Source: a virus
Direction: 5' to 3' (one strand)
IMG/VR virus record: IMGVR_UViG_3300021475_000023
Location: 1 to 48,774 of that record
DNA length: 48,774 nucleotides
The translations under genes and the position numbers were made by a program. The notes beneath the pieces were generated by a model. That model was not told the origin of the DNA and ran no database searches. It saw only the letters and a list, made by a program, of their open reading frames with translations. Below, piece by piece: positions 16,710 to 36,550 of this stretch (position 1 is its first letter; every line of letters starts with the position of its first letter).

Positions 16710-16713
16710 GACA

Positions 16714-19230: not shown

Positions 19231-19236
19231 TTCCGA

Positions 19237-21225
19237 TCATAGCTTTCCGTATCGTTTGACAATGGCCCCCTTCGCCGACAACGGCATGCCTTTGGCCCAC
19301 GGCTTGGGATTGGTCATCACGTCGCGCATGAGCTTGAGAAGAACGGACCCGTCTTCGGCGGTCAGAGCGACGATTTCATCATGCACGGTGGTGCAGAGCG
19401 TATCGGGGTAGATTGCATCGAGATCGACAATGGCGTCGGCGAGGAGATCGCGGGCGACGGCTTGCGTGGCGTTTTCGACCAGTTTCCCGCCGTAGGTGTC
19501 GAGTTGACGCCACTGCTTGGTGACCTGGTCGACGCCCCAGAACACGATGCGCCCATTCTCTAATCGAGCATTGCGATAGACGAGGTTGCGCCCGGACGGG
19601 AGCGTCATGAGAAGCGACCCTGCAAGGCGTCCTTTGGGGTTCGCCATGCGAAAGCGAAGGCGCTTGTAGGGGAACTCGTCGCTGGGGCTCAGGATCGCCT
19701 TGCGGGCGCACGTCTCGCACGCGTGCCACAGCGAGACGATGAGCGCGTTGGCCTGGCGAAAAGCGTCGATGGCGTTCTTGGCCTCGCTCAGGCTCAGCAA
19801 CACCCGATAGGCCGGCGACGCGGCTGTCGTTTGGAACTTGACGTGACCCATGCCGAACCCGGCCGCGAGACGAAGCACTTTGCCGAGTTGACGATCGGTC
19901 GAGCCGATAGCGGCGGCGGTGGCGACGTAGACGTCGTCGCCACGGCGAAACACGTCGAGGAGGGGTTCGTCCTCGGCCAGCCACGCCAGGACGATAGCCT
20001 CGATGGCGTGGTAGTCGCACACGACGAAAGAGAACCCCTCCGGGGCCTGGAACACGCCGCGCAGACACGAGGAGACCACATCGAGTGGCCGCCCGAAAAT
20101 GTGCCGGAGCGTGTCGCCGTCAGCTCCAAGGAGGATCTCCTCGATGGCGAGATCGACGTGCCGGATCACGGGGCGGGGGAAATTCTGGATCTGCGGGCCG
20201 CGCCCTCCCCAGCGGAGCGTCCGAACCGCCGCGCCATATTGCACGAGGTTGCGGGCGTAGTCGTCGTGCGAAGCGTAGTTGGCGAGCGAAATCAACTTCG
20301 CCGTCGAGGTTTTGGCCGCTTCGGCGCGGGTGAGCAGAACGTCCTGCACTTCGGGCGTAAGCGCGCTGAAGGCGGGCGTGCCCAGGAACGGGAAGAGCGT
20401 GTCCTTGTCGAGCGAGGCGTGAGGGTAGCCGCCAGCCTGGACCCATTGGAGGAGCCGGGAGTTTTGCGTCGCGCTGGTGACTGCGCCCTTAGTGAGCGAA
20501 GCGATGACCGCGTTGAGGTCTAGAAGTTCTCGAAGCGTGATTGCGCTCAGAGCGGTGAGCAAAACGTCGTCTACGGGTAAGCCGCGGGCGTTCATGCGCT
20601 GGTCGACGAGCCAGATCTCGCGCTCGCGCTTGGTCATGCGCGGGATGCGCATGTGAACCTCGCGCTCGGCCCTCACGTCGTCGATGTTGTACGCGACCAG
20701 GTCTCTGACCTTGGCGCGGTCTTCGCGGTGCCACCAGCGCAGCGGGTTCAAGGAGCGGGGCCGGGCCATGCGCTTCATCAAGGCGCGGCCGGTTTTGTCT
20801 TTGAGATAAGGCGAACCCACCGCGATCGCCGCTTCGTCGAGGCTCATGGGCAAGCCGGCGCATGCCGCTGCGCACATGGTGCAGTGAAAGCGCTCGATGG
20901 GGAGTGCAGGCCAGCCAAAGCGTGGGACACAGATGTTGTTCCAGACGTTCCACTCGAAGTTGGCGTTCCAAGCATGAAGCTCCGCGCCGCCGACAACAGC
21001 ATCGAGCAAGGTGGCGCGCTTCTTGTGCGCGAACCCATGCTCGGTGGGATTAGGCCAAGCGAAATCGAGCATGTCGAACTCGAAGCTCTCAGGCTCGGCG
21101 TGATCGAGCGCGAACCCGCACAGGATTGGGACCGTGTCCGGGCGCTTAGTCCACACGTCCGCGCCTACGTCGGAGAGATCGAGTACACCCGCCAGTTCGA
21201 AATCGAGCGAGACGACTTTAGTCAC
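19237..21225 (-). CDS. polA: DNA polymerase, family A, with 3'-5' exonuclease domain
   Basis: A 662-residue polymerase starting with GTG inside the upstream stop. The N-terminal exonuclease site shows LDFELAG (D8, E10) and HAWNANFEWNVW. Polymerase motif A is VVCDYHAIEAIVLAWLA, motif B is LGKVLRLAAGFGMGHVKF and motif C is TVHDEIVAL near the end. It lacks a 5' nuclease domain, as is usual for phage replicases. Motif B reads FGMGHVKF rather than the common YGxx form. It works with the adjacent primase-helicase and DUF2815 genes. Confidence 0.9.
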   Translation of the reverse strand: MTKVVSLDFELAGVLDLSDVGADVWTKRPDTVPILCGFALDHAEPESFEFDMLDFAWPNPTEHGFAHKKRATLLDAVVGGAELHAWNANFEWNVWNNICVPRFGWPALPIERFHCTMCAAACAGLPMSLDEAAIAVGSPYLKDKTGRALMKRMARPRSLNPLRWWHREDRAKVRDLVAYNIDDVRAEREVHMRIPRMTKREREIWLVDQRMNARGLPVDDVLLTALSAITLRELLDLNAVIASLTKGAVTSATQNSRLLQWVQAGGYPHASLDKDTLFPFLGTPAFSALTPEVQDVLLTRAEAAKTSTAKLISLANYASHDDYARNLVQYGAAVRTLRWGGRGPQIQNFPRPVIRHVDLAIEEILLGADGDTLRHIFGRPLDVVSSCLRGVFQAPEGFSFVVCDYHAIEAIVLAWLAEDEPLLDVFRRGDDVYVATAAAIGSTDRQLGKVLRLAAGFGMGHVKFQTTAASPAYRVLLSLSEAKNAIDAFRQANALIVSLWHACETCARKAILSPSDEFPYKRLRFRMANPKGRLAGSLLMTLPSGRNLVYRNARLENGRIVFWGVDQVTKQWRQLDTYGGKLVENATQAVARDLLADAIVDLDAIYPDTLCTTVHDEIVALTAEDGSVLLKLMRDVMTNPKPWAKGMPLSAKGAIVKRYGKL

Positions 21226-21614
21226 TCCAGCGTCTCGCTAACGAGATGCGCCTGGCCCTCGATGTCGCGCCAATGATCGAGGTGGTGGGGGTTGCCCGAA
21301 AGAATGCGGGCGAGCTTGGTGAAGATCGCTTCGAGGCTCTCGCGCTGGATGTCGGTGAGGTTCGAACCCCAGTTGGGCGTGTTGCGCGCCACGTCCTTGA
21401 AGCGCTGAGCGATCAGCGCCGTCGCGCTGAAATTACCGTGGGTGAACTCCCGCTCAACTAGGAGGGGATGACGCGACGCCGGCGTCGACGGATGGCGCAG
21501 CGCGGCCTCGATGGCGGCGAGGCTCCCGATATGCGGCAGCGCATAGTGTTCGGAGACACGGCGTGTCTCGCTGACGTGGCTGTAGTCTTCGACGTGCTCG
21601 GAGGTTTCGTCCAC
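21222..21614 (-). CDS. DUF6378-like small phage protein
   Basis: About 130 residues from a GTG at 21614 with AAAGGA upstream; a TTG at 21635 would add 7 residues but has no ribosome site. The C-terminal half, LTDIQRESLEAIFTKLARILSGNPHHLDHWRDIEG (split here by position 90-125), follows the DUF6378 pattern 'a.em...K.aRilsGn...DhW.DiaGY'. Its role is unknown. The family often occurs in phage replication modules, as here, coupled to DNA polymerase by a GTGA overlap. Confidence 0.6.
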   Translation of the reverse strand: MDETSEHVEDYSHVSETRRVSEHYALPHIGSLAAIEAALRHPSTPASRHPLLVEREFTHGNFSATALIAQRFKDVARNTPNWGSNLTDIQRESLEAIFTKLARILSGNPHHLDHWRDIEGQAHLVSETLE

Positions 21615-21638
21615 GAGGGGTGTTCCTTTCGCCAAGAT

Positions 21639-21663
21639 GCGGGCCGCGTTAAGCGCGGCCCGC
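21639..21663 (-). terminator. Intercistronic GC-rich hairpin
   Basis: A perfect 10-bp inverted repeat (GCGGGCCGCG / CGCGGCCCGC) with a 5-base loop lies between the DUF2815 and DUF6378 genes. No T-tract follows on the minus strand, so it may be an attenuator or RNA-stabilising element rather than a full terminator. Confidence 0.5.
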
Positions 21664-21674
21664 GAAGATTGTTT

Positions 21675-22367
21675 TTAGATGGGTTCTTCTTCGCCCTCGT
21701 CGTCCTCGGGGAACGACAAGTTGGCCGGCTTGCGGCCATCAAGACGAGGTCCGGGCTTGAGGAACTGCACGGTTTCGAGGAAGAACGAACACCCTTTCTT
21801 CCCCACGGTGTCGTAGGCGAACGGGCGAACGTTGGCGCGCACAATCCAACCCGCGTAGAACTCGGACCAGTCGATGATGTCCTCGCGCCGGCTGTTGACG
21901 CAACCGGGCTGAGTCTTGGTCCACGGCGAGATGAAGATGTCGCCGGCTTTGTAACCTTCGTACAAGCCTGCTTTCTCCGCGCCGTCGTGGAAAGGCGAGA
22001 TCAGTCCAGTGGGCAACTTGGCGGGCCAGCGCGCTTTTAGCGCCTCGTCGATACCCTTCTGGAGGTTGGCGAACTCGGGGCGCTTTTGTGCGCTCTTGTC
22101 GAAGATGATGGTGAGCGAGAAGCGCAAGTCAGCGCCCTCGACGATGGCCCTCGGCTTCACGAGATGAGGGAAAGAGCAGACGCCGGGCGGCGTCAGGATC
22201 GAGTGCATAGCCACGGTGATGTCCTCTTGGTCTGTTGAGTCGGTTTGGTCGGTTGAGAAGGGCGCCATCGCCCTCCGGTATCCCGCGACGGTTTTGAGCC
22301 GCTCGCGGAATTGGTCACGCGCATTGAGCGCGCCTAGAACGCCCAGGATCTGATCGGGCGTAGCCAT
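21675..22367 (-). CDS. DUF2815 family, probable ssDNA-binding protein
   Basis: A 230-residue protein whose ATG overlaps the DUF2800 stop (TGATG). After about 50 N-terminal residues the DUF2815 pattern begins: CSFPHLVKPRAI, LRFSLTIIFDKS, FHDGAEKAGLYEGYKAGDIFISPWTKTQPG (seen near 115-145), DIIDWSEFYAGWIVRANVRPFAYD, and GCSFFLETVQFLKPGPRLDG. It ends in an acidic tail (FPEDDEGEEEPI) like many SSBs. The family is commonly linked with DUF2800 nuclease and PolA in phages, and SSB-like function is generally assumed. The N-terminal extension looks additional to the core. Confidence 0.75.
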   Translation of the reverse strand: MATPDQILGVLGALNARDQFRERLKTVAGYRRAMAPFSTDQTDSTDQEDITVAMHSILTPPGVCSFPHLVKPRAIVEGADLRFSLTIIFDKSAQKRPEFANLQKGIDEALKARWPAKLPTGLISPFHDGAEKAGLYEGYKAGDIFISPWTKTQPGCVNSRREDIIDWSEFYAGWIVRANVRPFAYDTVGKKGCSFFLETVQFLKPGPRLDGRKPANLSFPEDDEGEEEPI

Positions 22368-23188
22368 CAGATCGTCTCCAGTTCGGCGTCGAGTTCGGGA
22401 TCGTAGTCGGGGAAGCTGTCGATCGAGCGCTGCGTCCGGTATCTCGCGTACACAGGGCAGTCGATGCTGGCGGCGCAGAAAAAACAGTGGTTGCCGGGCA
22501 CGAGCGGCCCTCCCCCGTTGGCGATGATCTCGACGCTCGGCTTGAACGTCGAATAGCCCCAGTAGAGGAGATCGCCCAGCGAGATCGTCCAGGTGCGCAC
22601 GGGTTGTCCACCGGCGCGGGGCTGCACGATCACCAGACACACATTCTCGATGGTTTGGGCCAGGTCGGGGCGCTCGCGCACCAGCTTGCCGTAGAGGCCG
22701 AGCGCGTAGAGCAAGAGTTGGGTGTTGCGGTCCACCCGAACCCCCTTTCCCCGGCCAAACTTGAAGTCGAGCACATAGAGAGTGAACCCGTCGCAGGCGC
22801 CGAAATCCGAGGTTCCAAACACGTTTTCGGGCGGCTCCTCGCCGAGCAGGGTCCAGATCCACGCGAGCGACACTTCGCCCTCGACCACGCGCCACTGGGA
22901 AGCGTCGGAGATCGACCCGGTGGTGGCGGCAAACAGTTGCACAGCGTTGAGCATTTCGGGCGTGACCTGGATCGAGTCGCCGTCGACGTCGAATGTCGCA
23001 CCCTCTTTCCACGGCACCGCGTGGATGGTCAGCGCCGCCTCGCAGAGCGTGTGCGCCAAGACGCCCTCGTGCGCGGCGAACCCGACCTTGCGCGGCGGGC
23101 GCGTCGCCCACATCGCGGGCGCGCCGGTGCAATTCAGCCAGATGTCGCTGGACGAGGGGCCGAGACGGGCGTGGCGCTGAGACGACAT
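22367..23188 (-). CDS. DUF2800 family, PD-(D/E)XK (RecB-like) nuclease
   Basis: A 273-residue protein. It begins HARLGPSSSDIWLNCTGAP and AAHEGVLAHTLCEAAL, typical of the DUF2800/Cas4-RecB-like fold. The active-site region is GTSDFGACDG and LYVLDFKFGRGKGVRVDRNTQLLLYALG (near 140-180), giving the D...DxK triad and the following Gln motif. Four C-terminal Cys (CFFCAASIDCP plus nearby) could hold an iron-sulphur cluster, as in Cas4/AddB, though I only see three closely spaced ones. It probably processes DNA ends in recombination or replication together with DUF2815. Confidence 0.75.
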   Translation of the reverse strand: MSSQRHARLGPSSSDIWLNCTGAPAMWATRPPRKVGFAAHEGVLAHTLCEAALTIHAVPWKEGATFDVDGDSIQVTPEMLNAVQLFAATTGSISDASQWRVVEGEVSLAWIWTLLGEEPPENVFGTSDFGACDGFTLYVLDFKFGRGKGVRVDRNTQLLLYALGLYGKLVRERPDLAQTIENVCLVIVQPRAGGQPVRTWTISLGDLLYWGYSTFKPSVEIIANGGGPLVPGNHCFFCAASIDCPVYARYRTQRSIDSFPDYDPELDAELETI

Positions 23189-23204
23189 TGGCTTTGTCTT
23201 AGGA

Positions 23205-23720
23205 TCACGCCACCGGCTCGGCGAGCCCGGCCGCTTCGATCAGGTCGGCGAGCGCTTGTTTATGCGCGTCGGTCGCCTCCATCACGAACCCAAGGCCCGT
23301 CTTGGTCTTGAACGCCGGGAGCAACTCCAGGATTTTAGGTGAAGCGCCTTGTTCTTTCTTCTGAGCGAGGCGCACGGCCTGGGTCACGACGCCCTTGAGC
23401 ACATCGAGAGGAGGAAGCTCGCGCACGGGAGGAGGGGGCGCGGGAGGCGCGGGGGGAGGCGCGGGGGGAGGAACGGGAGCGGGCTTCGCCGCCTCGGGCT
23501 CGGGCGCCGGCGCGGGCTTGGTTTTCCTCGTGCGACTGGGCGCGGAAAGGGGTTCGACAGGGGCCTCGGGAACAGGTTCGGGAAGGGACTTAGCTAATTC
23601 CTCGACGTCGTCGGGGAACTCGTCGAACGCCGGAAGAGGCTTCACGTCCAGCGCGCTGCGCATCTGCAGGGCGATATCGAGCCAGTTAGCGCCTTGAAAT
23701 GTAATGGATATGTTGGTCAT
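23205..23720 (-). CDS. Hypothetical replication-operon protein with Pro-rich linker
   Basis: 171 residues from ATG at 23720 with GAGG 6 bases upstream; a longer open frame to 23837 overlaps the helicase gene and is not used. The N-terminus MTNISITFQGANWLDIALQM suggests a small fold. Residues about 55-115 are a Pro/Ala/Glu linker. The C-terminal 55 residues (VLKGVVTQAVRLAQKKEQG, LLPAFKTKTGL, HKQALADLIEAAGL) are helical. It could be an adaptor between replication proteins, but no family is named. Confidence 0.5.
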   Translation of the reverse strand: MTNISITFQGANWLDIALQMRSALDVKPLPAFDEFPDDVEELAKSLPEPVPEAPVEPLSAPSRTRKTKPAPAPEPEAAKPAPVPPPAPPPAPPAPPPPVRELPPLDVLKGVVTQAVRLAQKKEQGASPKILELLPAFKTKTGLGFVMEATDAHKQALADLIEAAGLAEPVA

Positions 23721-23745
23721 CTGTGTCCTCACTTGGTTTAAGATG

Positions 23746-25167
23746 TCATATGGCATCTGGAAAGTCAACTCTTGTAGCACGTTGCACAGGGGTGTTGTCA
23801 ACGATTTGCGCGATTTCGCGGGTCTTGCGGGCAACAATGGACACCAAGCGGGCGTCGAGAGTTCCAGGGAGAAGCACGAAACGAGCTAAAACAGCGTTAC
23901 GTTGTCCATTTCTGTGCGCTCTGGCGATCGCTTGGTGGTTCTTCGCCGGCACAGGCGACATCTCGGCGATGACGACGTTGTGCGCCGCATGAAGCGTGAT
24001 GCTCTCCCCGGCAGCCTCGATGGCGAGAACGATCAAACGGCGCTTGGGGTTCGCCTGGAAAGCGCCGATCACCATCTCGCGGTTTCGAGCGTTCGTCTCT
24101 CCGGTGATCACCAGGGGCGCATAAGCCTTGAGCCGCTCGGCGAGGTCACGAATAACCTCGCGATGATGAGCGAAGACGATGAGTTTCTCGTCGAGGTTGT
24201 CTTCGAGAAAGTCGCTCACCAGTTCGGCGACGCCCTCGACTTTCGCTCGGCCGATCAGGCGCCGCACCGTCGAAAACGCGACCATGCTCGATTGAACCAT
24301 CCCCAGAAGCTGGTCGTCGTCGAGCGCATCGATGTTTCGATCGAGTGTTGCGCCAGCCATCGCCTGCGCCAGTTCGACGCGCAGTGAGCGCTCGATGGCC
24401 GTGTCTGCCGGCAGCGAGTGCTCGACGATACGAAGCTCGGGCAACTCGGGGAGCACGTCTCTGAGCTTTTTACGATCGATGAACGGTTTGAGCCGTTGGC
24501 CAAGCTCATAAGTGTTGCGCGATCCCACGATGCGCAGGCCCCTGGGCCCGCCGCGGGCGACGACGCAAAACCTGTCGACGAACGTGTCGTAGTCCATCGC
24601 GCCCAGTTGCGGGAGAACGATCAAATCGGGCCTGAGCGCGTGGAGGTGGGTCCAGAACTCCGCCGCGTGGTTGAGAATGGGTGTTCCGCTGAGGCACCAG
24701 ACGTGGGGAGTTGTCGCCAAAGGCGATCCCTTGAGGTCGAGGCGCTCGCCGTAGATGGCTTGGGTGCGGATCGCCTCGGGGTTCTTGAGGTAATGGGCCT
24801 CGTCCACGATCGCCACGTCGAAGGGGGCGCGTGAAGCCGCCTCGATCACGCTCCGGCTCTGAGCGAGGCGCGAGAACGGGACGATCCGAACCCCCTCGCC
24901 CGCCATGAAGTCGTAGGGCTTGGCCGCGGCCGTCGCGTCGAAGATCCTGATGTCCCTGATGTTCGACCAGTCGACAAAATGCTGTCTCCAGACACTCACC
25001 GCGATCGGCGGGCAGAACACCAGGATTCTGACTGCTCCGGTTTTCATCGCGGCGCGCACCGTCGTCGGCGTCTTGCCCACGCCCGCGTCCCACACCAGCA
25101 TCGCCCGGTGCGAAGTTGCGAGCAGGTTTGCGCCCTTCGCCTGGAAAGCCATCAGTTCGAAGCTCAT
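23746..25167 (-). CDS. SNF2/DEAD-type superfamily 2 helicase
   Basis: A 473-residue helicase with ATG at 25167 (GGAGG 4 bases upstream, ATGA overlap with the previous gene). Motif I is WDAGVGKT (26-33), with GVGKT in place of the usual GLGKT. Motif II is VAIVDEAHYLKNPEA, motif III WCLSGTP, motif V around AAGESITLHAA and motif VI QAIARAHRNGQ. This compact SNF2 form is typical of phage replication modules with PolA, DUF2800 and DUF2815. It probably remodels or unwinds DNA during replication or recombination. Confidence 0.85.
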   Translation of the reverse strand: MSFELMAFQAKGANLLATSHRAMLVWDAGVGKTPTTVRAAMKTGAVRILVFCPPIAVSVWRQHFVDWSNIRDIRIFDATAAAKPYDFMAGEGVRIVPFSRLAQSRSVIEAASRAPFDVAIVDEAHYLKNPEAIRTQAIYGERLDLKGSPLATTPHVWCLSGTPILNHAAEFWTHLHALRPDLIVLPQLGAMDYDTFVDRFCVVARGGPRGLRIVGSRNTYELGQRLKPFIDRKKLRDVLPELPELRIVEHSLPADTAIERSLRVELAQAMAGATLDRNIDALDDDQLLGMVQSSMVAFSTVRRLIGRAKVEGVAELVSDFLEDNLDEKLIVFAHHREVIRDLAERLKAYAPLVITGETNARNREMVIGAFQANPKRRLIVLAIEAAGESITLHAAHNVVIAEMSPVPAKNHQAIARAHRNGQRNAVLARFVLLPGTLDARLVSIVARKTREIAQIVDNTPVQRATRVDFPDAI

Positions 25168-25421
25168 AGCTCCTCCACGTTCAAGTCGATGGCGTTGGCG
25201 AAGGTGAGCAGGCTGTCGAGGTACCAACCGCCTATCAGGGTGTTCGCCATGTAGCTGTGGTGATGGCGCAACGCCTGCGCTATGATTCGCAGCCTGGCTC
25301 GGGGGCTCTGCGCTTTCTCGTATTGAGCGAGCAACCGTTTCCGCTCGGCGTCGAAGACCGCGAAGCGTTTTGCCGCCTCGGCGCCGATCTGGGTCATCTG
25401 ATCTTCAGCGTCAGTGCTCAT
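25164..25421 (-). CDS. Small helical protein of unknown function
   Basis: An 85-residue protein, ATG at 25421 overlapping the resolvase stop, with GGAGGG upstream. It is almost wholly helical and charged (AEAAKRFAVFDAERKRLLAQYEKAQSP at about 14-40) and then has LRHHHSYMAN and GGWYLDSLLTFANAIDL. It is coupled on both sides by ATGA overlaps, so it is likely produced stoichiometrically with the resolvase and helicase. Confidence 0.55.
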   Translation of the reverse strand: MSTDAEDQMTQIGAEAAKRFAVFDAERKRLLAQYEKAQSPRARLRIIAQALRHHHSYMANTLIGGWYLDSLLTFANAIDLNVEEL

Positions 25422-25912
25422 ACGAACCCCCTCCCGGCGTCGGTGTCGAAAGCGTAGCGCGCCAGGAGCAAAGCGTCCGCCCGGCCCACGTGCTTTTTCA
25501 GGCCAAGTTTCGACGACGCTTCCGGGTAGAGCCGGATGGCGATCTCTCGCGAAACGTCCTTGTCTTTTCCTAAGAGCCGAAAGTGCGCCTTCCACTTGGC
25601 CGGCGTGACATAGGAAATGGGCGCGCCATACCCGGCGACGCACCCTATCGCGACGCCATAAGCGCAGCCGAAAGTGAATACCGAACTCACTCCCTGACCC
25701 GGCCTGGACGCCACTTTTTCGATAATAGCGAAAGCCGGGCGCATCGAGCGGAGCATATCACAGAACGCGGTTGCGTTCACCATTTTGGCAAAGCGAGGCA
25801 GCTCGTTGCAATCTATGAACTCCCCAGCGCCTCCGAGAATTGCAAAAGCTCCGTTCACGCCTGGGTCGATGGCGATAATTCCCGTGCGGGAATCGGGGTT
25901 TTGATGGGTCAT
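25418..25912 (-). CDS. RuvC-like Holliday junction resolvase
   Basis: A 164-residue RNase H-fold nuclease. Acidic residues sit where expected: D16 in AIDPGVNGAF, E65 in FAIIEKVASRPGQGVSS, and H141/D146 in KKHVGRADALLLARYA. It probably resolves branched DNA before packaging and recombination. It is the first gene of the leftward replication operon. Its ATG lies inside a 32-bp tandem repeat and overlaps the stop of an 11-residue upstream ORF. Confidence 0.85.
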   Translation of the reverse strand: MTHQNPDSRTGIIAIDPGVNGAFAILGGAGEFIDCNELPRFAKMVNATAFCDMLRSMRPAFAIIEKVASRPGQGVSSVFTFGCAYGVAIGCVAGYGAPISYVTPAKWKAHFRLLGKDKDVSREIAIRLYPEASSKLGLKKHVGRADALLLARYAFDTDAGRGFV

Positions 25913-25970
25913 AGCTCACAGTCATAATCTGGCATATAGGTCATAGCTCATGGTCATAATCTGACATGTT
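25907..25970 (-). repeat. 32-bp tandem duplication over the resolvase start
   Basis: Two direct copies, 25907-25938 and 25939-25970, agree at 27 of 32 positions. Each contains GGTCATAGCTCA and GTCATAATCTG. The inner copy holds the resolvase start codon; the outer copy duplicates that start context. Confidence 0.8.
25909..25944 (-). CDS. 11-residue upstream ORF in the resolvase leader
   Basis: Within the outer repeat copy, an ATG at 25944 opens a short frame (MTYMPDYDCEL) whose TGA overlaps the resolvase ATG (ATGA). It was probably created by the duplication and may couple or tune translation of the replication operon. Expression is unproven. Confidence 0.35.
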   Translation of the reverse strand: MTYMPDYDCEL

Positions 25971-25981
25971 GAACTCGTCAA
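25953..25981 (-). promoter_or_regulatory. Candidate sigma70 promoter of the leftward replication operon
   Basis: Reading leftward, TTGACG (25981-25976), a 17-base spacer and TATGAC (25958-25953) precede the resolvase. The predicted transcript would start close to 25946, only a few bases before the upstream ORF at 25944. Confidence 0.45.
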
Positions 25982-26400
25982 GAGCAATTCGTTAAGTGAT
26001 TTTCCTCGTGAATTTGAGTTCATGGTTTGTACCCATTACCGCTTTTACCATATGCATCGATGTATGTTTTTGTATGGTAAGCGGAAATTTTCTCTTTTTT
26101 GTCAATAGCTATTTACCCTTTTACCTTTTTACCTTTTATATATATAAAGAAAAAGAATAAGAATAAGAAAAGAACAAAAAAAGGAACAAGAATACAAAAC
26201 ATTACACATAGGGGAGAAGAAAAAAGAGAAAAAAGAAAAAGAGGGAAATAATGATAGGAAAAGTCAGTTTGGTTGGTAATCCGGTATAAGACACCTCGCT
26301 ACAAAACCGGAATGTTCCTGCGATAAGGCGGGTTCGAATTTGTCGAAAACCCTCTGACGATTTCCGGGGCCACTTTGTCTTATAAGGCAAAACGCTTTTC
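25982..26400. other. AT-rich island, candidate DNA-unwinding part of the origin
   Basis: About 400 bases with no convincing gene and a composition far more AT-rich than the rest. It holds three TTTACC-like repeats (26110-26135), a TATATATATA stretch near 26140, and a long run (about 26148-26250) of almost pure purines on the plus strand. Such easily melted DNA beside iteron-like repeats is typical of replication origins. I see no DnaA box of the TTATCCACA type. Confidence 0.55.
26039..26084. repeat. Inverted repeat in the AT-rich island
   Basis: CCGCTT-tt-ACCATA (26039-26052) pairs with TATGGTAAGCGG (26073-26084), giving a 12-bp stem with a 2-base bulge and a loop of about 20 bases. It could be a protein-binding palindrome or a cruciform at the origin. 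Confidence 0.6.
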
Positions 26401-26436
26401 GGGGTGGTGAAGAAGAGGCGCCCGGCCCGGCGCGAG

Positions 26437-26548
26437 CAGACACGCCAGGCCAGACACGTCAGGCCAGACACGCCAGGCCAGACACGCCAGGCCAGACACG
26501 CCAGGCCAGACACGCCAAGCCAGACACGCCAGGCCAGACACGCCAGGG
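26437..26548 (+). repeat. Iteron-like array: eight 14-bp repeats starting CAGACAC
   Basis: Eight contiguous units start at 26437, 26451, 26465, 26479, 26493, 26507, 26521 and 26535. The consensus is CAGACACGCCAGGC; units 2, 6 and 8 each carry one or two changes, all outside the CAGACAC core. The array borders the AT-rich island, as iterons border origin melting regions. The heptamer core is scattered through the whole genome. There are no spacers, so this is not a CRISPR. Confidence 0.9.
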
Positions 26549-26551
26549 CGT

Positions 26552-26740
26552 TCAGACCTCTTTGTCGAGCCGGGCGCGCTCCCGCGCCAAGTAAGCTTCG
26601 TGCTTGGCGGTTTCGCTCAATTGTCGAGGCGACGGCGCAGGAGGCCACTGCGTCTCAGACTGGCAGTCGTCGCAAATCGACAAGATCCCCAAAAGGGCTA
26701 CGAGCCACAACGGCAGAAAAACGACGACGACGACGATCAC
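26552..26740 (-). CDS. Small single-span membrane protein
   Basis: A 62-residue protein from GTG at 26740, with GAGG 9 bases upstream. Residues 2-22 (IVVVVVFLPLWLVALLGILSI) form one membrane span, followed by a Cys pair (CDDC) and a charged cytoplasmic or periplasmic helix (LSETAKHEAYLARERARLDKE). It ends 10 bases from the iteron array. A larger open frame to 27097 overlaps the CobT-like gene and is not supported. The function is unknown; it follows the CobT-like gene and shares its unusual leader. Confidence 0.5.
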   Translation of the reverse strand: MIVVVVVFLPLWLVALLGILSICDDCQSETQWPPAPSPRQLSETAKHEAYLARERARLDKEV

Positions 26741-26757
26741 GGGGTTAATCCTCAACC

Positions 26758-26802
26758 GGGCAAAAGCGCCCGCGACCAGGGGGCGGGTTCGAACCCGTCC
26801 CC
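26758..26802 (-). promoter_or_regulatory. Leader stem-loops before the small membrane protein
   Basis: Two elements lie between the CobT-like stop and the GTG at 26740. A near-perfect palindrome of 24 bases (26779-26802) is centred on GGGTTCGAACCC. A 19-base stem-loop at 26758-26776 (on the minus strand GTCGCGGGCGCTTTTGCCC) is almost the same as one before the gene at 28937. Confidence 0.55.
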
Positions 26803-26817
26803 TGCGCGCTGGCGCTT

Positions 26818-28758
26818 TCAGGCGGCGCGGGGCGCGCCGCCGTCGAGCAGCTTGATCAGGGCTTTCAGGCCCTCGGTCGAGAGCGCCCTCGTGTCCCACA
26901 CGACGCACGCCCTCTGTGCGAACGGCCAGAGCACGCTGTTGGTCATCAGTCCGATACCGACAATCTCGACCCCACGGCCCTGGTAGAACGCGCACAGAGC
27001 CGCGTTGGCGTCCGGCGAGTAACTGTCTTGACCGTCGGTCAAAACGAGCAAAATGCGCCGGGTCACATTGCCGACTTTCAGCAAGCGCTCGGCGCACGCT
27101 TTCATCGCCGGCAGCATGCCCGTGCCGGCTTGGCTCGTGAGACCGGCGACTTTGCGGCGGGTGGGTTCGGCCCAGCCCTCCGTAAACGCCTTCGGGCGCA
27201 TGATGGAAGCGTCGTCGAACCCCGTGATCTCGAACTTCACGCCGGCCGCTTTGAGGGCGTCGCCCATGTGCAGCGCCATCGCCTTGGCCGCAGCGAGACG
27301 CGGACCCGCCATCGAGCCCGACACGTCGAGCAAGATCGACACGGCGGCTTCCCTGCCCTCTTCCTCGACCCGTCGGCGAAACACGTTAGGCGCGCCGGTC
27401 GCGAGCCCCACCAGGTTCCGCATATCGAGACGCCCAGATGGTTGGCGACGTTCGTTGGCCACGCGCTCCGGGCTCTTGACCGCTTGCGTCAAGTGCCGGC
27501 GCAACCTGGCCGGGCTGGCGATGGCTTCGCCTGCGAGCTTGGGGCTTCCGCCGCGCTTCAATTCGACTTCGCGAGGCAGGGGAACGTTCAAGATCGTCGT
27601 GGCGTTGGCGGCTTCGACCGTCACCTGATGAGGGTCTTTGCCCGCTCCCCGCGCTGTTTCCTCGGCGATGTCGTTCAGGTGGGCCTCTTCGTAGCGCTGG
27701 GTAGCGTCGCTCACGTCCTCGACTGGCTCGACTGGCTCGGCGGGTTCATGGTCGCTACGCCCTCCGGCGTCGCCCGTGTTCGCGCCCTGGGAAGCCTTGC
27801 CCGCATCGTCGCCCTCAGCTTCGCCTTCAGGAGGCCCACCAGAGGCCGCTGGAGGCCCTTCGAGGCCGGGTTGGGGGGAAACAGCCTCTGAGGGCTCTTG
27901 GCCGTCCACGGGCTCTGGCGCGTCGTCTGGCGTGTCACTCTCTGCACCTGTCAAATCGCCCAGCGCCGCATCGTCGTCTTCACTCTCGCTTTCGGTTATT
28001 TCGCCTTCGTTCTCGCCTTCGTTCTCGCCTTCGCTTCCGGCAGGGCGGGGAGAGAGGTTCGACTGCGCCGGTTTGGGCGCGGTCGAAGCCAGCGCTTTCA
28101 GGTCGTGCGCCAAGGTCAAACAATCCTGGGTCGAGGCGAGCGTGTCGAAACGCGCCAGGGCGAGATCGAACAACGGCAGTTGTTCGCGGCGCACATGGCC
28201 ACGCCAATTGGCGGGGAACGTCGAGGCGTAGCCTAGCTTTTCGCGAAAGATCACGAGGTTCAGGACGAACGAAAACTGCGCCGGGTCGCTCAACTCGAAC
28301 CCCGGCGCGTTCAGCGCCCGCTGAGCGATATGGGCGTTGAGCGCTTCCAGCAATCGTCGTGCTTCCGTCACCATGACCAGCGCCGGAGTGTTTGCTTTCG
28401 TCTCGATACGGTTGTCTTCGAGCGCGTTGACCAGCGCGTGAACCCCGTCGCGGCGCGATTGCGCGACGACTTCCCAGTCGGTCCACAGCGCGTGCAGGAG
28501 TTCGTGAACGACGTAAGCGCCGATCAAGTCCGCCTGCCAGCGTGGCAGGCGCACGTTCAACGGCATTGCCGGCATGCACAGTGTCCAATGCGACACGCCG
28601 GTGTAAAGGTCGCGTTTCGCCAGTGCAATCGCGGCGGTCCCGACAAAAGGCCTGATCACCCAGTGGTCGTGCGGGTTACCGCCATTGGCTACGTACAAAC
28701 GCACGCAAGTTTCTTTCGCGGCATGGTACAATTCCATCGGGGTTAAAAGTTTCGACAC
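26818..28758 (-). CDS. CobT-like zincin-VWA protein
   Basis: A 646-residue protein from GTG at 28758 (GAGG 9 bases upstream); an ATG at 28812 would add 18 mainly Arg residues. The N-terminal part has VVHELLHALW (HExxH at 85-89) and VNALEDNRIE, the paired motif of CobT-like proteins and putative metallopeptidases, where the Glu may be the third zinc ligand. The middle (about 235-380) is a highly acidic Glu/Gly/Pro linker. The C-terminal VWA domain has LLDVSGSMAG (DxSxS at 478-482) and LVLTDGQ. In cobaltochelatase, CobT acts with the AAA+ CobS on CobN. Here no CobN-like gene is present, so the target is probably different. Confidence 0.75.
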   Translation of the reverse strand: MSKLLTPMELYHAAKETCVRLYVANGGNPHDHWVIRPFVGTAAIALAKRDLYTGVSHWTLCMPAMPLNVRLPRWQADLIGAYVVHELLHALWTDWEVVAQSRRDGVHALVNALEDNRIETKANTPALVMVTEARRLLEALNAHIAQRALNAPGFELSDPAQFSFVLNLVIFREKLGYASTFPANWRGHVRREQLPLFDLALARFDTLASTQDCLTLAHDLKALASTAPKPAQSNLSPRPAGSEGENEGENEGEITESESEDDDAALGDLTGAESDTPDDAPEPVDGQEPSEAVSPQPGLEGPPAASGGPPEGEAEGDDAGKASQGANTGDAGGRSDHEPAEPVEPVEDVSDATQRYEEAHLNDIAEETARGAGKDPHQVTVEAANATTILNVPLPREVELKRGGSPKLAGEAIASPARLRRHLTQAVKSPERVANERRQPSGRLDMRNLVGLATGAPNVFRRRVEEEGREAAVSILLDVSGSMAGPRLAAAKAMALHMGDALKAAGVKFEITGFDDASIMRPKAFTEGWAEPTRRKVAGLTSQAGTGMLPAMKACAERLLKVGNVTRRILLVLTDGQDSYSPDANAALCAFYQGRGVEIVGIGLMTNSVLWPFAQRACVVWDTRALSTEGLKALIKLLDGGAPRAA

Positions 28759-28769
28759 GGGATCAATCC

Positions 28770-28937
28770 TCACGCTGCGGTTTCGTCGTCGTCGGCGTCT
28801 TCGTTGCGCCAATGACCTGAGTTTTCTTCGTCTAGAAAAGCTTCGAAGCGGAGGGCTTCTGCTGCGCTGGCGAAGTTTTGTGAGCGCTCGCTATCGCCAG
28901 CGCAAATGTCAGTTTCAATCCAAATGACAGTGATCAC
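28770..28937 (-). CDS. Tiny acidic protein between CobS- and CobT-like genes
   Basis: A 55-residue protein from GTG at 28937 with GGAG 8 bases upstream. It starts with a beta strand (MITVIWIETDI), then has a helix (FASAAEALRFEAFLDEE) and an acidic end (NEDADDDETAA). It sits 11 bases before the CobT-like start. No family is recognised. It might be a substrate adaptor or regulator of the pair, by position only. Confidence 0.5.
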   Translation of the reverse strand: MITVIWIETDICAGDSERSQNFASAAEALRFEAFLDEENSGHWRNEDADDDETAA

Positions 28938-28955
28938 GTTCAAGTCTCCGTTGTA

Positions 28956-28997
28956 GGGCGAAAGCGCCCGCAACTGCCCAACGCGCCGCGTTGGGCA
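28956..28997 (-). promoter_or_regulatory. Two intercistronic stem-loops after the CobS-like gene
   Basis: On the minus strand a perfect 10-bp stem (TGCCCAACGC / GCGTTGGGCA with a 3-base loop, 28997-28975) is followed by a second stem-loop GGGCG-CTTT-CGCCC (28969-28956). The second element with its flank (28956-28974) matches 26758-26776 at 17 of 19 bases. There is no T-tract. They may attenuate transcription or protect mRNA ends. Confidence 0.6.
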
Positions 28998-29017
28998 ATC
29001 GCTGACGTTCTCAGCCC

Positions 29018-30694
29018 TCAGAGGGGATCGCTCGCGTCGGGGAACGACAGTCCGGCGACACTGATCCCCGCGCCTTGCGTCGATGCGTCGACGGGCTTGG
29101 CGTCGGGGTCGAGCGAACCGCGAACGATCCCGTCGATCACGGCGTGCGCAGATGTCAGGTTTTGCCCGGCGAGCATGATCAGGGCGGCTTTGTCCTCGGC
29201 CGCTGCGCCCGCGATCACTACGCCTTCGAACGCTTGTTTCGAACCGATCCCGATCTTGACTAGGTTCGCCCATGCCAACAAACGTCTCGTTGTGACGCCC
29301 ATTGTCAGTTTTCCCGCGTCGCAGCTCTGGCGCGTGAGCTTGGCGTATTCGACCATAGGCTGAACCGCCTTGGGATGTACGCCAACGCGCCGGGAAACCA
29401 TGGTTGTCTCTTGACCCTCAGTGAGAAAGCTCAGTTCAGTCTTGAGCGCGAACCGATCAAGAAAAGCAGCGTTCAACGCTGCGGTATCTATGTATCTCCC
29501 ACTGTCGTCGCCGGTCCCGTTGGTATTGTCGCAAGCGCAGATGAAAACCCCATGCGCGGCAGGGACAATTTCCCCAGTGACTAGATACAACTTCCGCGTG
29601 TCGAGCGCGGTCTGCAAAACGCTCAGCGTCCCGGAGCGCAACAACGAAGGCTCGTCAATCAAAATCACGCAACGCGGTATCCTGAACGCTCTCGTTAGTT
29701 TCCCGTCTTCCCACGTCATCCCTCCCCCTTTTGCTGGGACCATCTGGCCGATCAATTCCATCGGCTCGGTCGTCCTCTCAATCGGGATCCGCACGAACGG
29801 GCGGTTCAATCTCGCCGCATATTGCCCTAACCCGACAGTTTTCCCGGTCCCCGCGACCCCGTACACCCAAGCGTTCATCCCGGCGGCGTCCTGCGCCGCA
29901 AGCTCAGCCAGCAACGAAGGCTGCCACAAATAGTCCAAGTCCACTGGGTTCAGCGGGTCGACGTAGTCGCACACGTCGACTTGCAAACTGTCCCAAACGT
30001 GCCTGTGTGTCTGGGGGCAGTCGCTCTTTCTCATGCCGAACGCCTGGAACAGCGAGAGCGTCTTAGTTCTCGCGACCGTCAGTGGCGGCTGAACCACCGC
30101 GCCGTCTTTGTCGACGGTCTGAACGACGGTTTTCACGATCGTTCTCGGTCCTCGAACCGCAGACGCCACGACGTCCCTGATCAAGTCCGGCATCATCCCG
30201 GCCAAGTGCGGGGTCATGTGTACCGAGGCCGGCGCTAATACCTCCGCGATTACCGTCTCGACGTCGCCCCCCTCGAAGCGCTCTGCGTTGTTCGCGCCGC
30301 TCTCTTCTTTCTCTTGCTCTTTCGTGTGCGCCATCGCCTCCGCGATGCTGTCCAAGCTCACGAGGCCCTCCGCCAGAAGCTTGTTGCGCAGCGCCTTCGA
30401 TGTCGCGCCGCCTAGTTGGGGTTCGTCAGGCGAAGGCGCCTGAGGCATGGCTGCGACTTTTCCCGGAGACCCGAGCGCCAGCCATTGCGCATGAGCCGCG
30501 AACAAATCGTACCTAAGCGCCTCAGCCGCCAAAATGATCTCGGCTTTGGTCAAGGTCTCGGTTCGGCCGTTCCAGCCTTGCGTAACGCAATAATCGCTCC
30601 AACCCGGTTGCGATTTTAATCGCGGCTTGATGAAGTCGCGAAATTCTCTCCCCAACTGGAAACGGTCGTATTTCGAAGGAATAACGTTAGACAT
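29018..30694 (-). CDS. CobS/MoxR-like AAA+ ATPase
   Basis: A 558-residue protein. The first 250 residues are not typical of CobS and may bind a partner or DNA. The AAA+ core shows Walker A GVAGTGKT (279-286), RTTEPMELIGQ, Walker B CVILIDEPSL (D347, E348), sensor ICACDNTNGTGDDSGRY and arginine region NAAFLDRFA, as in CobS/NirQ/MoxR ATPases. It would be the motor for the VWA protein downstream. It is the first gene of the leftward operon from the divergent control region at 30695-30838. No strong ribosome site is visible, with GGAG 13 bases before ATG. Confidence 0.8.
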   Translation of the reverse strand: MSNVIPSKYDRFQLGREFRDFIKPRLKSQPGWSDYCVTQGWNGRTETLTKAEIILAAEALRYDLFAAHAQWLALGSPGKVAAMPQAPSPDEPQLGGATSKALRNKLLAEGLVSLDSIAEAMAHTKEQEKEESGANNAERFEGGDVETVIAEVLAPASVHMTPHLAGMMPDLIRDVVASAVRGPRTIVKTVVQTVDKDGAVVQPPLTVARTKTLSLFQAFGMRKSDCPQTHRHVWDSLQVDVCDYVDPLNPVDLDYLWQPSLLAELAAQDAAGMNAWVYGVAGTGKTVGLGQYAARLNRPFVRIPIERTTEPMELIGQMVPAKGGGMTWEDGKLTRAFRIPRCVILIDEPSLLRSGTLSVLQTALDTRKLYLVTGEIVPAAHGVFICACDNTNGTGDDSGRYIDTAALNAAFLDRFALKTELSFLTEGQETTMVSRRVGVHPKAVQPMVEYAKLTRQSCDAGKLTMGVTTRRLLAWANLVKIGIGSKQAFEGVVIAGAAAEDKAALIMLAGQNLTSAHAVIDGIVRGSLDPDAKPVDASTQGAGISVAGLSFPDASDPL

Positions 30695-30764
30695 TTCAGT
30701 AACTTAGCTCCACTCGCCCGCAGACGCATTCCACGGGACATCGTGTCACTAGCATACAAAACAG

Positions 30765-30805
30765 GGCATGTCTAGGCGTTTTTAGGCGTTTGTGGACATG
30801 TTGCC
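30765..30805. promoter_or_regulatory. Operator-like repeats in the divergent control region
   Basis: Between the leftward CobS-like gene and the rightward late genes, an inverted repeat GGCATGTC / GACATG(TT)GCC brackets two direct TAGGCGTTT copies 10 bases apart (30773 and 30783). A weak rightward promoter (TTGCCT at 30801, 17 bases, TTAATT at 30824) would overlap it. One regulator bound here could set the balance between the two directions. Confidence 0.45.
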
Positions 30806-30838
30806 TGATGTTTGTGCGCCGGCTTAATTCCTTGCGCT

Positions 30839-31114
30839 ATGAACTTCACGCGTGAGGACTGGCGACCGGGCCGCAATAGACGGAGCTATCCCCGACAACG
30901 CGACTGGGGAGGGCGGCGCGAGATATCGCCAGGAATGAGCGCGAACGTCGTTCCCGGCGTGTTTGCACCGGGCGCTCCTCGTTGCGCTCACTGCGGGCGC
31001 GTGGCTATGCGAGGTCTCACGGTTTGCCGTCAGCACGGCGGCGCACGATGGACGGCGCGTTTGAGGCCCTACATAGCGCGCCAGGATATCAAGGCGGGTT
31101 CGCCGGAGCCATGA
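30839..31114 (+). CDS. HGG-type zinc-finger protein next to small terminase
   Basis: A 91-residue basic protein; ATG at 30839 has no ribosome site and a TTG at 30812 would add 9 residues. It carries CAHCGRVAMRGLTVCRQHGGA (C49, C52, C63, H67, listed by position), a treble-clef-like finger widespread in phage and transposon genes next to or within terminase small subunits. The rest is Arg-rich. Its stop overlaps the next ATG (ATGA). DNA binding in packaging is a reasonable inference. Confidence 0.55.
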   Translation: MNFTREDWRPGRNRRSYPRQRDWGGRREISPGMSANVVPGVFAPGAPRCAHCGRVAMRGLTVCRQHGGARWTARLRPYIARQDIKAGSPEP

Positions 31115-31428
31115 GGCGTTTGAAAACTGCCGTGTCTGTCGTGTCTGTGCCAGGACAACTTGAGGCCATTACAGACACAGTTGAACTCGCCAAGCTAACT
31201 CTACAGGCGATTTGCCGGAGCGACGCACCAGCTGCGGCGAGAGCACAAGCTGCGAGAACACTATTGGAATTGGCCGGAGTTTTACGCTCAGGCGGAGGCG
31301 CAGACACGCGTCGGACACCTGCAGAAATGTCACTCGAGGAATTGGACGCTCGGCTCGAGGCATTGAGCGCAAGCGGGTCCGGGCTGGGTCCGGGCGACGG
31401 CGCAGACACGGAAAAAGTGAGGAAATAG
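31111..31428 (+). CDS. Terminase small subunit candidate
   Basis: A 105-residue helical protein coupled to the zinc-finger gene. The pattern TVELAKLTLQAICRSDAPAAARAQAARTLLELAG (residues about 23-57) and EMSLEELDARLEALSASG near the C-terminus recall phage small terminase relatives. The finger gene and this one together resemble a full small terminase split in two. A longer frame from 30982 exists but overlaps the finger gene. Five CAGACAC/GTGTCTG heptamers lie inside this short gene, so it may double as the packaging site. Confidence 0.5.
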   Translation: MRRLKTAVSVVSVPGQLEAITDTVELAKLTLQAICRSDAPAAARAQAARTLLELAGVLRSGGGADTRRTPAEMSLEELDARLEALSASGSGLGPGDGADTEKVRK

Positions 31429-31447
31429 TAGGCGAGGCACGGGATGA

Positions 31448-31492
31448 CGCGGTGATGTTGGATCACCGCGTGTCGTGTCTGGGCGCAGACAC
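31448..31492. repeat. Two perfect hairpins behind the small terminase, one made of the CAGACAC motif
   Basis: CGCGGTGAT (31448-31456) and ATCACCGCG (31462-31470) form a perfect 9-bp stem. Directly after, GTGTCTG (31475-31481) and CAGACAC (31486-31492) form a perfect 7-bp stem with loop GGCG. Apart from these, the 31429-31886 gap shows one more GTGTCTG at 31523 and no convincing gene. Confidence 0.7.
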
Positions 31493-31886
31493 GCGGGCGC
31501 GTGACGGCGCGTGGGCGCGTGCGTGTCTGCCCCCGGGGGTATTGTCTAGCGACCGCGAGCCCGGGCCCCGTAAGGCTACTAAATTCAGCAATTTTGAACT
31601 TTTCAGGCTATTTCCATCAGGGTTTTAGAAAAGGGGTTCACTCGTCGAGTGTTCGGCGGATCTGCTGATCGCCTCGATACTTGCCGCACGAGAGCGCCGG
31701 CGATCTGCTCGAGACGCTCGACACGAGGGTACAAGTCAGTACACCCGCGTTGGCCACACTCCGAGGCGGTAAAAGGGTGTCCCCGCAGGGGTGAGGGGTT
31801 CACAAGCGTCGGGCAAAGCCCTATGCTGGCCGCCGCCGGTATTCGGATCGCTCGGCATGGTCCCCGCTCTCTTCCCCGAGTGCGCC

Positions 31887-33227
31887 ATGTCGTTTCCGAA
31901 CCCCCCTGCGAAGCTGGTGCCGTTCAACTCGGGGCCGGTCGCGCCCCACGACATCGGCCGTCAGTTCGACGAGCACACACGCTCAATCTCCAATGTTGTC
32001 AGCTTCTTACGCGGCATTGTGCGCGACGACGGCCGGCTCAGAAATGGGGCGATCGGGGCCGAGCAGCTCGCCCCGGGCCTGCCCGAAGACCTCGCCAAGC
32101 GAGCCGTCGCCGGCGTCGAAACCCTCCTCTCCGACGTCCGTCACAGCGCCGACGAGGCCGCCGCGGCGGTCAGCGAAGCCTGGCGGATACGGGAACAATT
32201 AGAGAACCTGCACGTCCGAATCGCCCAGAGCGTCGACGCAATGCAGCTGGCCAGCGCCGAGGCGCGCCAACATTTAACGCTATTACAGCGCGACCTTGAG
32301 GAAGCTCGTTCACCCCGCGCAGACACGAGTGGGACGGCTTTGCCCACGGGTGTCTTAGGCCCGAACGTAGGCGGCCCGTTCGGGACCGACCCCCAGGGCG
32401 CGAGCGCCACAGCCCAGGATTACTCCCAAGTCGCCATCGAATGGGCCGAGCACATGCCCGACACCATTCCTCCTAACATATTGGCAATAAACGCGATTAC
32501 CGGCCAGCACTGGTCCTCGCGGTGGTGGGCGAGCCGCGCCGCCGGGATGTTCGGAGGCTATTTGGTGTGGTGGTACCTGGGCGCCTACCACCACGCCGAC
32601 GCCCCGACCCACACGCCGACTGGGGATCCTCTCCAGCCGGGGATGCTCTATTACGACATCGACCTGCAACAAATGATGGTGTGGAACGGGACGACCTGGC
32701 AGTCGCTGGGCGCGCCGGTGGCGGGCATTTCGGCCTCCCTCTATTACCTGACCACGGCCGGACAAAGCGTTTATCCCCTTGGAACTGCTGACAAATTTGG
32801 AACCACCGCGACCCTCCAGATTGGCCAGGGCGTCAACGTCTATCTCAATGGGGTTCGGTTGACCCCCCTCGACGATTACTCCGTCAGCCAGCCGACTTCG
32901 ACCATAACCCTGACCGCCGGCGCTCCGGCGGGCTTGATCCTGGCGATCGACACCCTCATTCTCCCGGCGCAACTCGCGCACTCGACCGCTTTGGTCAAGG
33001 CGCTCAAGCCCTTGGTCCCGGTCCCCGACGGCGCCACCACCACCTTCACCCTGGCGTCGGCCGACGGCGCGACCCTCTCGATCAACAACGACGCCCAGGC
33101 GTGGATCAGCGTCGACGGCGTTCCGCAGCAGCCGACCACCGCCTACACCATTGTCGGCAACCAGATCTCCTTCACCACGGCGCCCAGCGCCGATGCTTAC
33201 ATTTTCGGGGTGTGGTTCTCACAATGA
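31887..33227 (+). CDS. Tail fibre/appendage anchor protein
   Basis: A 446-residue protein. I chose ATG at 31887 (CCGAG upstream); ATG at 31857 and an earlier frame to 31791 give less typical N-termini. Residues 1-75 ([48 protein letters not shown], by position) match the virion-binding start of many phage fibres. A long helical segment follows (about 75-150), then compact beta domains with [24 protein letters not shown] and a C-terminal [16 protein letters not shown]. It is the first of five overlapping fibre/lysis genes. It probably attaches the others to the tail. Confidence 0.65.
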
Positions 33228-33871
33228 CCAAGACCTTTGATCTTGCTAGGTTTTTAACCCAGGGAGGAGGCGTCGGCGGCCCGGTGACGCTCGCCGCGGA
33301 TCCCTCCGTCGCCCTCGGCGCGGCGACCAAGCAGTACGTCGACGCCCATGCCGGCGGCGGTGGGATCGCCGACGCGCCCAGCGACGGCTCTTATTATAGT
33401 AGGCGCAACGCCGTCTGGGCGGTGCCGCCCGCGGGCCTCGCCGACGCGCCCAACGACACTCTATATTATGTGCGTCACGCGCTCGGCTGGGTCGCGCTCA
33501 ATTACATAGCGCTCCCGGCCGAAGTCCAGCAAGTCCCGGTCTCGTTCCCGTTCCAGGGCAAGCCGGCGACGGCTGCGGTCGTCAACGTGCCGATGCCCTG
33601 GGCGCTCACGATTCCCGCGGGCCTGGCCGGGACGGTCGTCTACGACACGACCCAGGCGACGGCGAGCGCCATGTTCACTGTCAACAAGATCTCCGGGGGT
33701 TCGACGACGGCTCTGGGAACCGTAACCATTACAACGACTTCGCACACCTCGGCGACATTGGCGGGCGCGGGCGGGTCGTTGGCGATCGGCGACGTGCTCC
33801 AGGTCGTCGCCCCGACCCAGGACGCGACCCTTGCCGACCTCGGGATCACCATCCTGGCGATGAGAATCTAA
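33224..33871 (+). CDS. Tail fibre-associated protein
   Basis: A 215-residue protein starting in an ATGA overlap. It has [12 protein letters not shown], a motif of phage tail fibres, and two copies of a 'ADAPsDxxYYxRxxxxWv' repeat (about residues 46-80), common in fibre shafts. The C-terminal 110 residues form a small beta domain ([19 protein letters not shown]). It probably trimerises on the fibre. Confidence 0.6.
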
Positions 33872-36056: not shown

Positions 36057-36550
36057 GAGAACCCCCCGCCAAGCTGCGCCTTTCCGACGAGGGCTACGAC
36101 GTCCTCGCCGACCGCGAAGGCCTGGAGCTTACCGCGTATAAAGACACGCAGGGTGTCTGGACGATCGGCCTCGGCCACACCGGCGCAGCCGGTCCCCCCG
36201 AGGTCGTCGAGGGCATGACGATCACCGAGGCGGAGGCGCAGTCGATCTTCCGGCTGGACGCCACGCACTTCCGCGAGGAGTGTGTCGGCATGGTGAAAAC
36301 CCCCCTCGAGCAGTGGGAGTTCGACGCGACGGCGTCGTTCATCTTCAATATCGGCTCGACCCAGTTCTCGACCTCGACCTTCCTCGAACGCCTCAACCAG
36401 GGCGACTATGCCGGCGCGGCGGAAGCCCTTTTGTGGTGGGACAAGCCCCCGGAAATCATCCCGCGTCGTCGTGGAGAATACGTGCAGTTCACCGAAGGGA
36501 TCTACGCCGCCCGCGTCGACGACGAAGCCTGGGGAGACATGACGACGTGA
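36053..36550 (+). CDS. Endolysin, T4-type lysozyme (GH24)
   Basis: A 165-residue enzyme starting with GTG in a GTGA overlap, with GGAGG 7 bases upstream. The GH24 catalytic triad spacing is intact: E22, D31 and T37 in EGLELTAYKDTQGVWTIGLGHT (cited by position). No signal sequence or membrane anchor is seen, so it needs a holin. The two small membrane proteins directly downstream provide candidates. It cleaves the glycan strands of peptidoglycan. Confidence 0.9.
   Translation: MREPPAKLRLSDEGYDVLADREGLELTAYKDTQGVWTIGLGHTGAAGPPEVVEGMTITEAEAQSIFRLDATHFREECVGMVKTPLEQWEFDATASFIFNIGSTQFSTSTFLERLNQGDYAGAAEALLWWDKPPEIIPRRRGEYVQFTEGIYAARVDDEAWGDMTT

Follow-up and report, generated by a model that had tools for sequence, protein, structure and literature searches.

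CAGACAC, a dispersed phage heptamer that resembles a "self tag" on viral DNA, of a kind not yet described, more than an ordinary replication origin

Two described systems serve to introduce what is reported here. The DNA uptake sequences of the Neisseriaceae and Pasteurellaceae are short self-marking words that recur about once per kb, in coding and in non-coding DNA alike, and that exist as lineage variants. The stoperators of mycobacteriophages are bound by the phage repressor, are oriented, lie mostly between genes and are fewer. The stretch of viral DNA considered below (48,774 nucleotides, analysed in its entirety and referred to as the window) is densely strewn with a word of its own, CAGACAC. 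Eight copies of it form a tandem array, which the first-pass annotation read as an iteron-type replication origin. The array and its surroundings are made up as follows:

26437..26548, plus strand: tandem array of eight 14-bp units (CAGACAC plus 7 bases), in the gap between ruvC and the small ORF downstream of cobT.

25950..26250, no strand assigned: AT-rich island upstream of ruvC, a promoter or origin candidate; an AT-rich stretch is found there in relatives too.

25418..25912, minus strand: RuvC-like Holliday junction resolvase, with which the replication run opens.

26552..26745, minus strand: probable small ORF of membrane type (INPVIVVVVVFLPLW...ARLDKEV), which separates cobT from the array; proposed from sequence only and with an uncertain start codon.

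26818..28812, minus strand: CobT-like protein, 664 aa, with an HExxH...ED..IE domain, a long linker and a C-terminal VWA/MIDAS domain like that of NorD.

29018..30694, minus strand: CobS-like protein, 558 aa, with an N-terminal helical domain, linkers and a MoxR/NorQ-type AAA+ core (~208-540).

The array is what it was said to be: eight units at 26437-26548, with CAGACAC at an exact spacing of 14 bp (Tandem Repeats Finder: 26437-26547, period 14, 7.9 copies, 95% matches, consensus CAGACACGCCAGGC). As befits a conserved core, the heptamer is intact in 8/8 units; among the other bases, unit 2 has C->T (GTC) and unit 6 has G->A (CCAAG), and the last unit deviates at its end. The array lies a short way downstream of the cobS-cobT pair. 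The AT-rich island next to which it had been placed is real (~26.0-26.25 kb, up to 73.5% A+T per 200 bp) but is not contiguous with the array, the two being ~190 bp apart. On the far side of the island the RuvC-like gene is followed by the rest of the replication run: an SNF2 helicase, an ssDNA-binding protein, PolA and a primase. At the ruvC start and adjoining the island, a 32-bp sequence (ATGGGTCATAGCTCACAGTCATAATCTGGCAT) is directly repeated at 25904-25967, its two copies 88% alike; this is a possible regulatory or origin element. In the relative L033 a 32-bp unit repeated 3.1 times (CGAAGCATTAGTTTCCGCTTACGGATAGAGCC, 726-825) follows immediately on the ruvC match (230-718). Neither a distant DNA search of GenBank phages for the locus nor a search of IMG/VR for the exact array returned a match.

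The array accounts for a minor part of the word's occurrences:

1124..48357, both strands: the 57 CAGACAC sites that do not belong to the array, dispersed over every reading frame and also intergenic.

31132..31529, both strands: second dense patch, with eight CAGACAC sites (31132-, 31141-, 31172+, 31301+, 31403+, 31475-, 31486+, 31523-).

CAGACAC is the most over-represented heptamer of the window: it occurs 65 times in 48.8 kb, against 4.7 +/- 2.0 expected from dinucleotide shuffles, that is, ~1 per 750 bases or ~1.2 copies per kb, while its 21 one-mismatch neighbours stay at background (1-14 copies each). The first-pass suggestion that the array core is a phage-wide element is thereby borne out. 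The second patch surrounds the divergent gap between the early (minus-strand) and structural (plus-strand) operons, and its sites are partly arranged as inverted repeats (GTGTCTGGGCGCAGACAC). GTGTCTGGGCGCAGACAC and a longer CAGACAC inverted repeat lie at 31475-31530, in the gap that precedes the structural operon; in the relative locus L005 two words form a hairpin at 13864-13885. Spacing of the sites is approximately random in most genomes and somewhat even in two of them (G001 and G016p).

Could the word be a by-product of what the genes encode? Thirty genes contain 39 coding sites, 28 in the sense and 11 in the antisense direction; 300 synonymous-codon shuffles of these genes predict 2.45 and 0.92, respectively, with a maximum total of 12. 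The enrichment over this null is accordingly 11-12x and equal on both strands, from which it follows that selection acts on the double-stranded DNA and that the apparent sense bias is due to codon constraint only. Leaving the array aside, the 30 masked genes have 1.05 sites per kb and the remaining sequence 1.53. Sites in all frames, on both strands and between genes argue against an RNA signal, a peptide repeat or an oriented signal, and an explanation by coding (a repeated peptide, codon usage) is out: the word is read in several frames and on both strands, and synonymous shuffles fail to yield the sites. (A separate observation concerns another dispersed word, GAACCCC, with 63 copies against 11 expected over the whole window, for example at 1041, 3280, 9016, 19636 and 30418. 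It is strand-symmetric in coding DNA, at 22 sense and 25 antisense sites against 7.7 and 4.1 in synonymous shuffles; it is also found in the relatives G002 and G003, and it may be a second tag.)

In two related prophages the word is restricted to phage DNA. These prophages, of the same family as the window phage, allow phage and host sequence to be compared side by side: in the prophage of Rhizobiales bacterium AFS002495 the word AGACA, mostly preceded by A, T or C, occurs ~25 times per 5 kb, against ~2 in the flanks; in that of Devosia sp. 66-22 the word YGGACA occurs ~20 times, against ~4. In both, the word is dense inside and at background level beyond both ends. Among 397 genomes searched from the host order, none contained another such prophage.

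Relatives (IMG/VR contigs recovered through their terminase or DNA polymerase, the longer records then being read) carry the same word or a changed one. CAGACAC is a leading heptamer of the close relatives, at 10-19 per 10 kb; others have one-base variants, CAGGCAC, GAGACAC or GGGACAC, which longer records confirm, adding RAGACAC (G004). The cultured Microcystis phage Mae-Yong1326-1 has CAGGACA (89 copies, 11 expected). Variant words among related phages comprise RAGACAC, CAGGCAC, GGGACAC, YGGACAC, CAGGACA, GGGACAA, GGACGTG, CAGACG and TACAGAG. Strong words in pieces of the longer records include TACAGAG (71 against 3 expected, G030), GGGACAA (76 against 7, G026), CGGACGTG (53 against 5, G022) and ACTGAC (110 against 29, G020); Roseobacter phage CRP-810 has CAGACG (142 against 51), the word of the oyster-derived phage T5S1 is weak (AGACA, 222 against 143), and so is that of G028. 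Several CRP-810-type loci (L216, L228, L235, L261, L268, L269) show CCAGAG/GCCAGA, in some alongside CAGACG. Two CobS loci, L205 and L214, have an AT-rich word, GTTTAAA (25 and 21 copies, ~1 expected), unlike the RGAC-type words, and the word-less relatives G006 and G007 (L061-L062, L065) are rich in the palindromes GAGCTC, CTCGAG and GCCGGC instead. No description of such dispersed words was found in the open-access literature searched.

What do the phages that carry a word have in common? Profiles of the window genes were compared across word-carrying and word-less phages, and CobS was also sought in complete records. Only the CobS-like and CobT-like genes, among the genes of the window, are common to all word-carrying phages compared, CRP-810 and T5S1 included; both are absent from word-less kin (RHph_N65, G014, G006 and a Bosea prophage). 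Replication and structural genes are present in word-carrying and word-less phages alike. The converse comparison started from CobS: the strongest non-palindromic word in the central 10 kb of each CobS-selected locus was set against the same quantity in 63 control loci (Mann-Whitney). Window-type CobS loci (n=32) lie far above the controls (p=1.6e-7 for 6-mers, 8e-9 for 7-mers) and loci with full-length CobS of the CRP-810 type (n=22) moderately so (p=0.02 for 6-mers, 0.006 for 7-mers, 0.001 by neighbour contrast); loci matched solely through the AAA core of CobS have weak or null words, and phages with a short CobS have no stronger word than the controls (p=0.47). (On the choice of background: words were scored against a second-order model and by neighbour contrast, a third-order Markov model being unsuitable because the word itself shapes the 4-mers; even with a third-order background CobS loci remain above controls, p ~1e-7.)

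The long-form cobS-cobT pair is thus strongly associated with a dispersed word; cobT is found in 67/89 CobS loci, typically directly downstream. The gene pair alone is insufficient, since no such word is found in the short-form CobS/CobT phages SSU5, ICP2, RHEph10, nickie, ANB28 and V1VFA-S, or in cyanophage S-CAM9 with its short CobS. The pieces read of G020, G028 and G030 are without the capsid, portal and DNA polymerase of the window phage; in G020 and G030, therefore, strong word and cobST recur on other backbones. Most samples in this comparison belong to one phage family, and presence or absence of the word needs only ~two changes on the terminase tree, which means few independent events. 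Word similarity tracks CobS similarity (Mantel r=0.33, p=0.0002), and this could be a reflection of general phage relatedness. That the N-terminal domain of CobS sets the dialect is not clearly supported: its partial Mantel correlation (0.10, p=0.04) is no better than that of the AAA core (0.17, p=0.003).

Phage CobS and CobT have been listed as cobalamin auxiliary genes, with the remark that their role is uncertain (PMC11288001, PMC8651126). The window proteins fall far below the NCBIfam equivalog cut-offs (67.3 of 558.6 bits for the CobS-like, 21.4 of 759.1 bits for the CobT-like protein), and the window has no CobN-sized ORF, which makes cobalamin synthesis by the phage genes alone unlikely. 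In its predicted structure (mean pLDDT 80.5) CobS has a confident N-terminal helical domain at ~residues 4-77, low-confidence linkers at 78-141 and 183-204, and an AAA+ core that matches NorQ (Foldseek TM 0.86, target-normalised); the N-terminal domain found no useful family match in Pfam. CobT, modelled from a 648-aa start, has a confident N-terminal domain with conserved HExxH and ED..IE motifs, a low-confidence linker (234-359) and a VWA domain that matches NorD (Foldseek TM 0.65, target-normalised) and in which DxSxS is invariant. A NorQ/CbbQ-type AAA+ core with an adjacent VWA/MIDAS partner makes of the two a MoxR AAA+/VWA pair. Diversity in the CobT alignment was too great to allow a pattern scan, and the HExxH is not claimed as the mark of a protease, because the profile extends over most of true CobT as well. 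PADLOC returned no match for either protein.

The best explanation that we can offer, and one to which we would give nearly an even chance, is that CAGACAC is a phage-specific tag on double-stranded DNA, kept by selection throughout the genome and read by CobS/CobT or by a partner, the whole forming a self/non-self addressing system. The identity of the reader, either the CobS/CobT machine itself or a phage protein working with it, we infer from comparison of genes and genomes. The proposed machine would be an ATP-driven, NorQ-like AAA+ ring of CobS whose N-terminal helical domains are tethered, and the VWA arm of CobT would supply its substrate. It might act selectively on tagged phage DNA, for example by clearing or remodelling bound host proteins; alternatively, tagged DNA might be spared while CobS/CobT acts on untagged DNA of the host or of a competitor. 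Within this explanation the array results from tandem amplification of the dispersed word at one place, and it could serve, next to the operon, for high-affinity loading or for titration, possibly in an autoregulatory role. The variant words suggest that reader and tag change together, like a password by which self is told from non-self. A broader proposition, possible and put forward more tentatively, is that phage CobS/CobT with long N-terminal domains would not be cobalamin genes at all: they would form a self-recognition motor reading a dispersed, phage-specific password, whose dialects diverge as those of uptake sequences do and separate a phage's own DNA from that of host or rival. A strong, selected, phage-private DNA word in many phage genomes has apparently gone unnoticed before, and it offers a lead to what phage CobS/CobT do. 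If the proposal is true, phages have a sequence-based self/non-self system with dialects, superinfection, host takeover and counter-defence acquire a testable handle, and sequence could predict which phages interfere with one another.

One more protein of the window enters the argument, as an alternative candidate reader of the word in the clade of close relatives:

16402..16650, minus strand: 82-aa HTH/excisionase-like protein, its conservation limited to close relatives.

That this or some other DNA-binding protein, differing from phage to phage, is what recognizes the word (as a dispersed operator, a nucleoid site or a packaging site), and that cobST co-occurs through a shared life style or cassette, is the strongest rival, unlikely as we judge it. 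Binding of the word by CobS/CobT is itself putative, the close group does share the HTH protein, and word similarity may merely track phage relatedness. Set against this, the profile comparison shows all word-carrying phages to share no window gene besides cobS and cobT, the association recurs on the unrelated backbones of G020, G030 and CRP-810, and control phages and short-CobS phages show nothing comparable; one would expect stoperator-like sites, moreover, to have an orientation and to lie mainly in intergenic DNA, and CAGACAC sites do neither. The binders suggested on first pass (the small helical or zinc-finger proteins, a DUF2815-type ssDNA-binding protein, a host protein) have weaker support than CobS/CobT, both because none of the other window genes is shared by every word phage compared and because flanking host DNA is without the word. 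An iteron-type origin, with the AT-rich region as the site of unwinding and with dispersed copies that titrate the initiator, has in its favor that eight direct repeats lie close to an AT-rich island, with replication genes adjoining. Replication origins are usually expected at the minimum of GC skew. Here the cumulative skew has its minimum at ~13-14 kb and its maximum at ~24-25 kb, and the array is near the maximum (weak evidence). In the comparison with relatives the dispersed word is conserved and the array is not: three of them (G001, G002, G009) keep the gene order ruvC-cobT-cobS and an AT-rich stretch upstream of ruvC but not the array, nor was such an array seen in the others, though close kin keep the dispersed word. 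The dispersed copies, selected inside genes and on both strands, far exceed what titration would need, and enrichment within genes on either strand is not something that an origin requires. The array has CobT-like and RuvC-like genes for neighbors, and the window ORFs scanned contain no Rep-type initiator domain, in agreement with the earlier remark that no known initiator family accounts for the element. We therefore consider an origin at the array improbable.

Two further explanations assign the word to marks of other kinds. Haloarchaeal viruses that encode a Dam enzyme have frequent GATC (PMC8651126), and by analogy the word might be the recognition site of a phage-encoded modification enzyme, its enrichment serving to mark the genome densely; some variant words are indeed asymmetric and contain A. 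No methyltransferase domain was found among the window ORFs scanned with Pfam and no methyltransferase gene is common to the word phages, and this explanation is accordingly a very improbable one. Still further down the scale is a host signal (Chi, a DNA uptake sequence or an FtsK polar sequence) accumulated by the phage. Such host words are short, dispersed and variable among lineages, and Chi is over-represented in some phages (PMC3784561). However, enrichment ends at the prophage boundaries, host DNA flanking both prophages having none, which makes signals of the Chi, uptake or FtsK type unlikely; no orientation preference remains after codon correction, and the ~12-fold enrichment seen here compares with a Chi observed/expected ratio of ~2.3 in E. 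coli (PMC3784561). We regard this last explanation as largely refuted.

How, then, does the tag reading sit among known systems? With DNA uptake sequences the phage word shares dense dispersal and lineage dialects; it differs in being absent from flanking host DNA, with no carriage by a competent host, and what accompanies it is not uptake machinery but a phage AAA+/VWA gene pair. Chi sites, which act with RecBCD/AddAB, are likewise dispersed, asymmetric, short and lineage-specific, whereas the phage word is unoriented after codon correction, is not host-encoded and is much more strongly enriched. Stoperators are phage-specific dispersed sites too, but CAGACAC has 65 copies, mostly inside genes and on both strands. 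The iteron origins of plasmids and phages resemble the array in having directly repeated units near an AT-rich stretch, and they part company with it in that the array is unconserved in relatives, no initiator family has been found for it, and the same core is dispersed genome-wide. The closest kin of the proteins are the MoxR-VWA pairs, cobaltochelatase CobS/CobT, NorQ/NorD and CbbQ/CbbO, which have a homologous AAA+ core and VWA domain and are likewise encoded by adjacent genes; compared with cobaltochelatase, the N-terminal domain of the window CobS is divergent and attached through a poorly predicted linker, and the phage genes go together with a dispersed DNA word.
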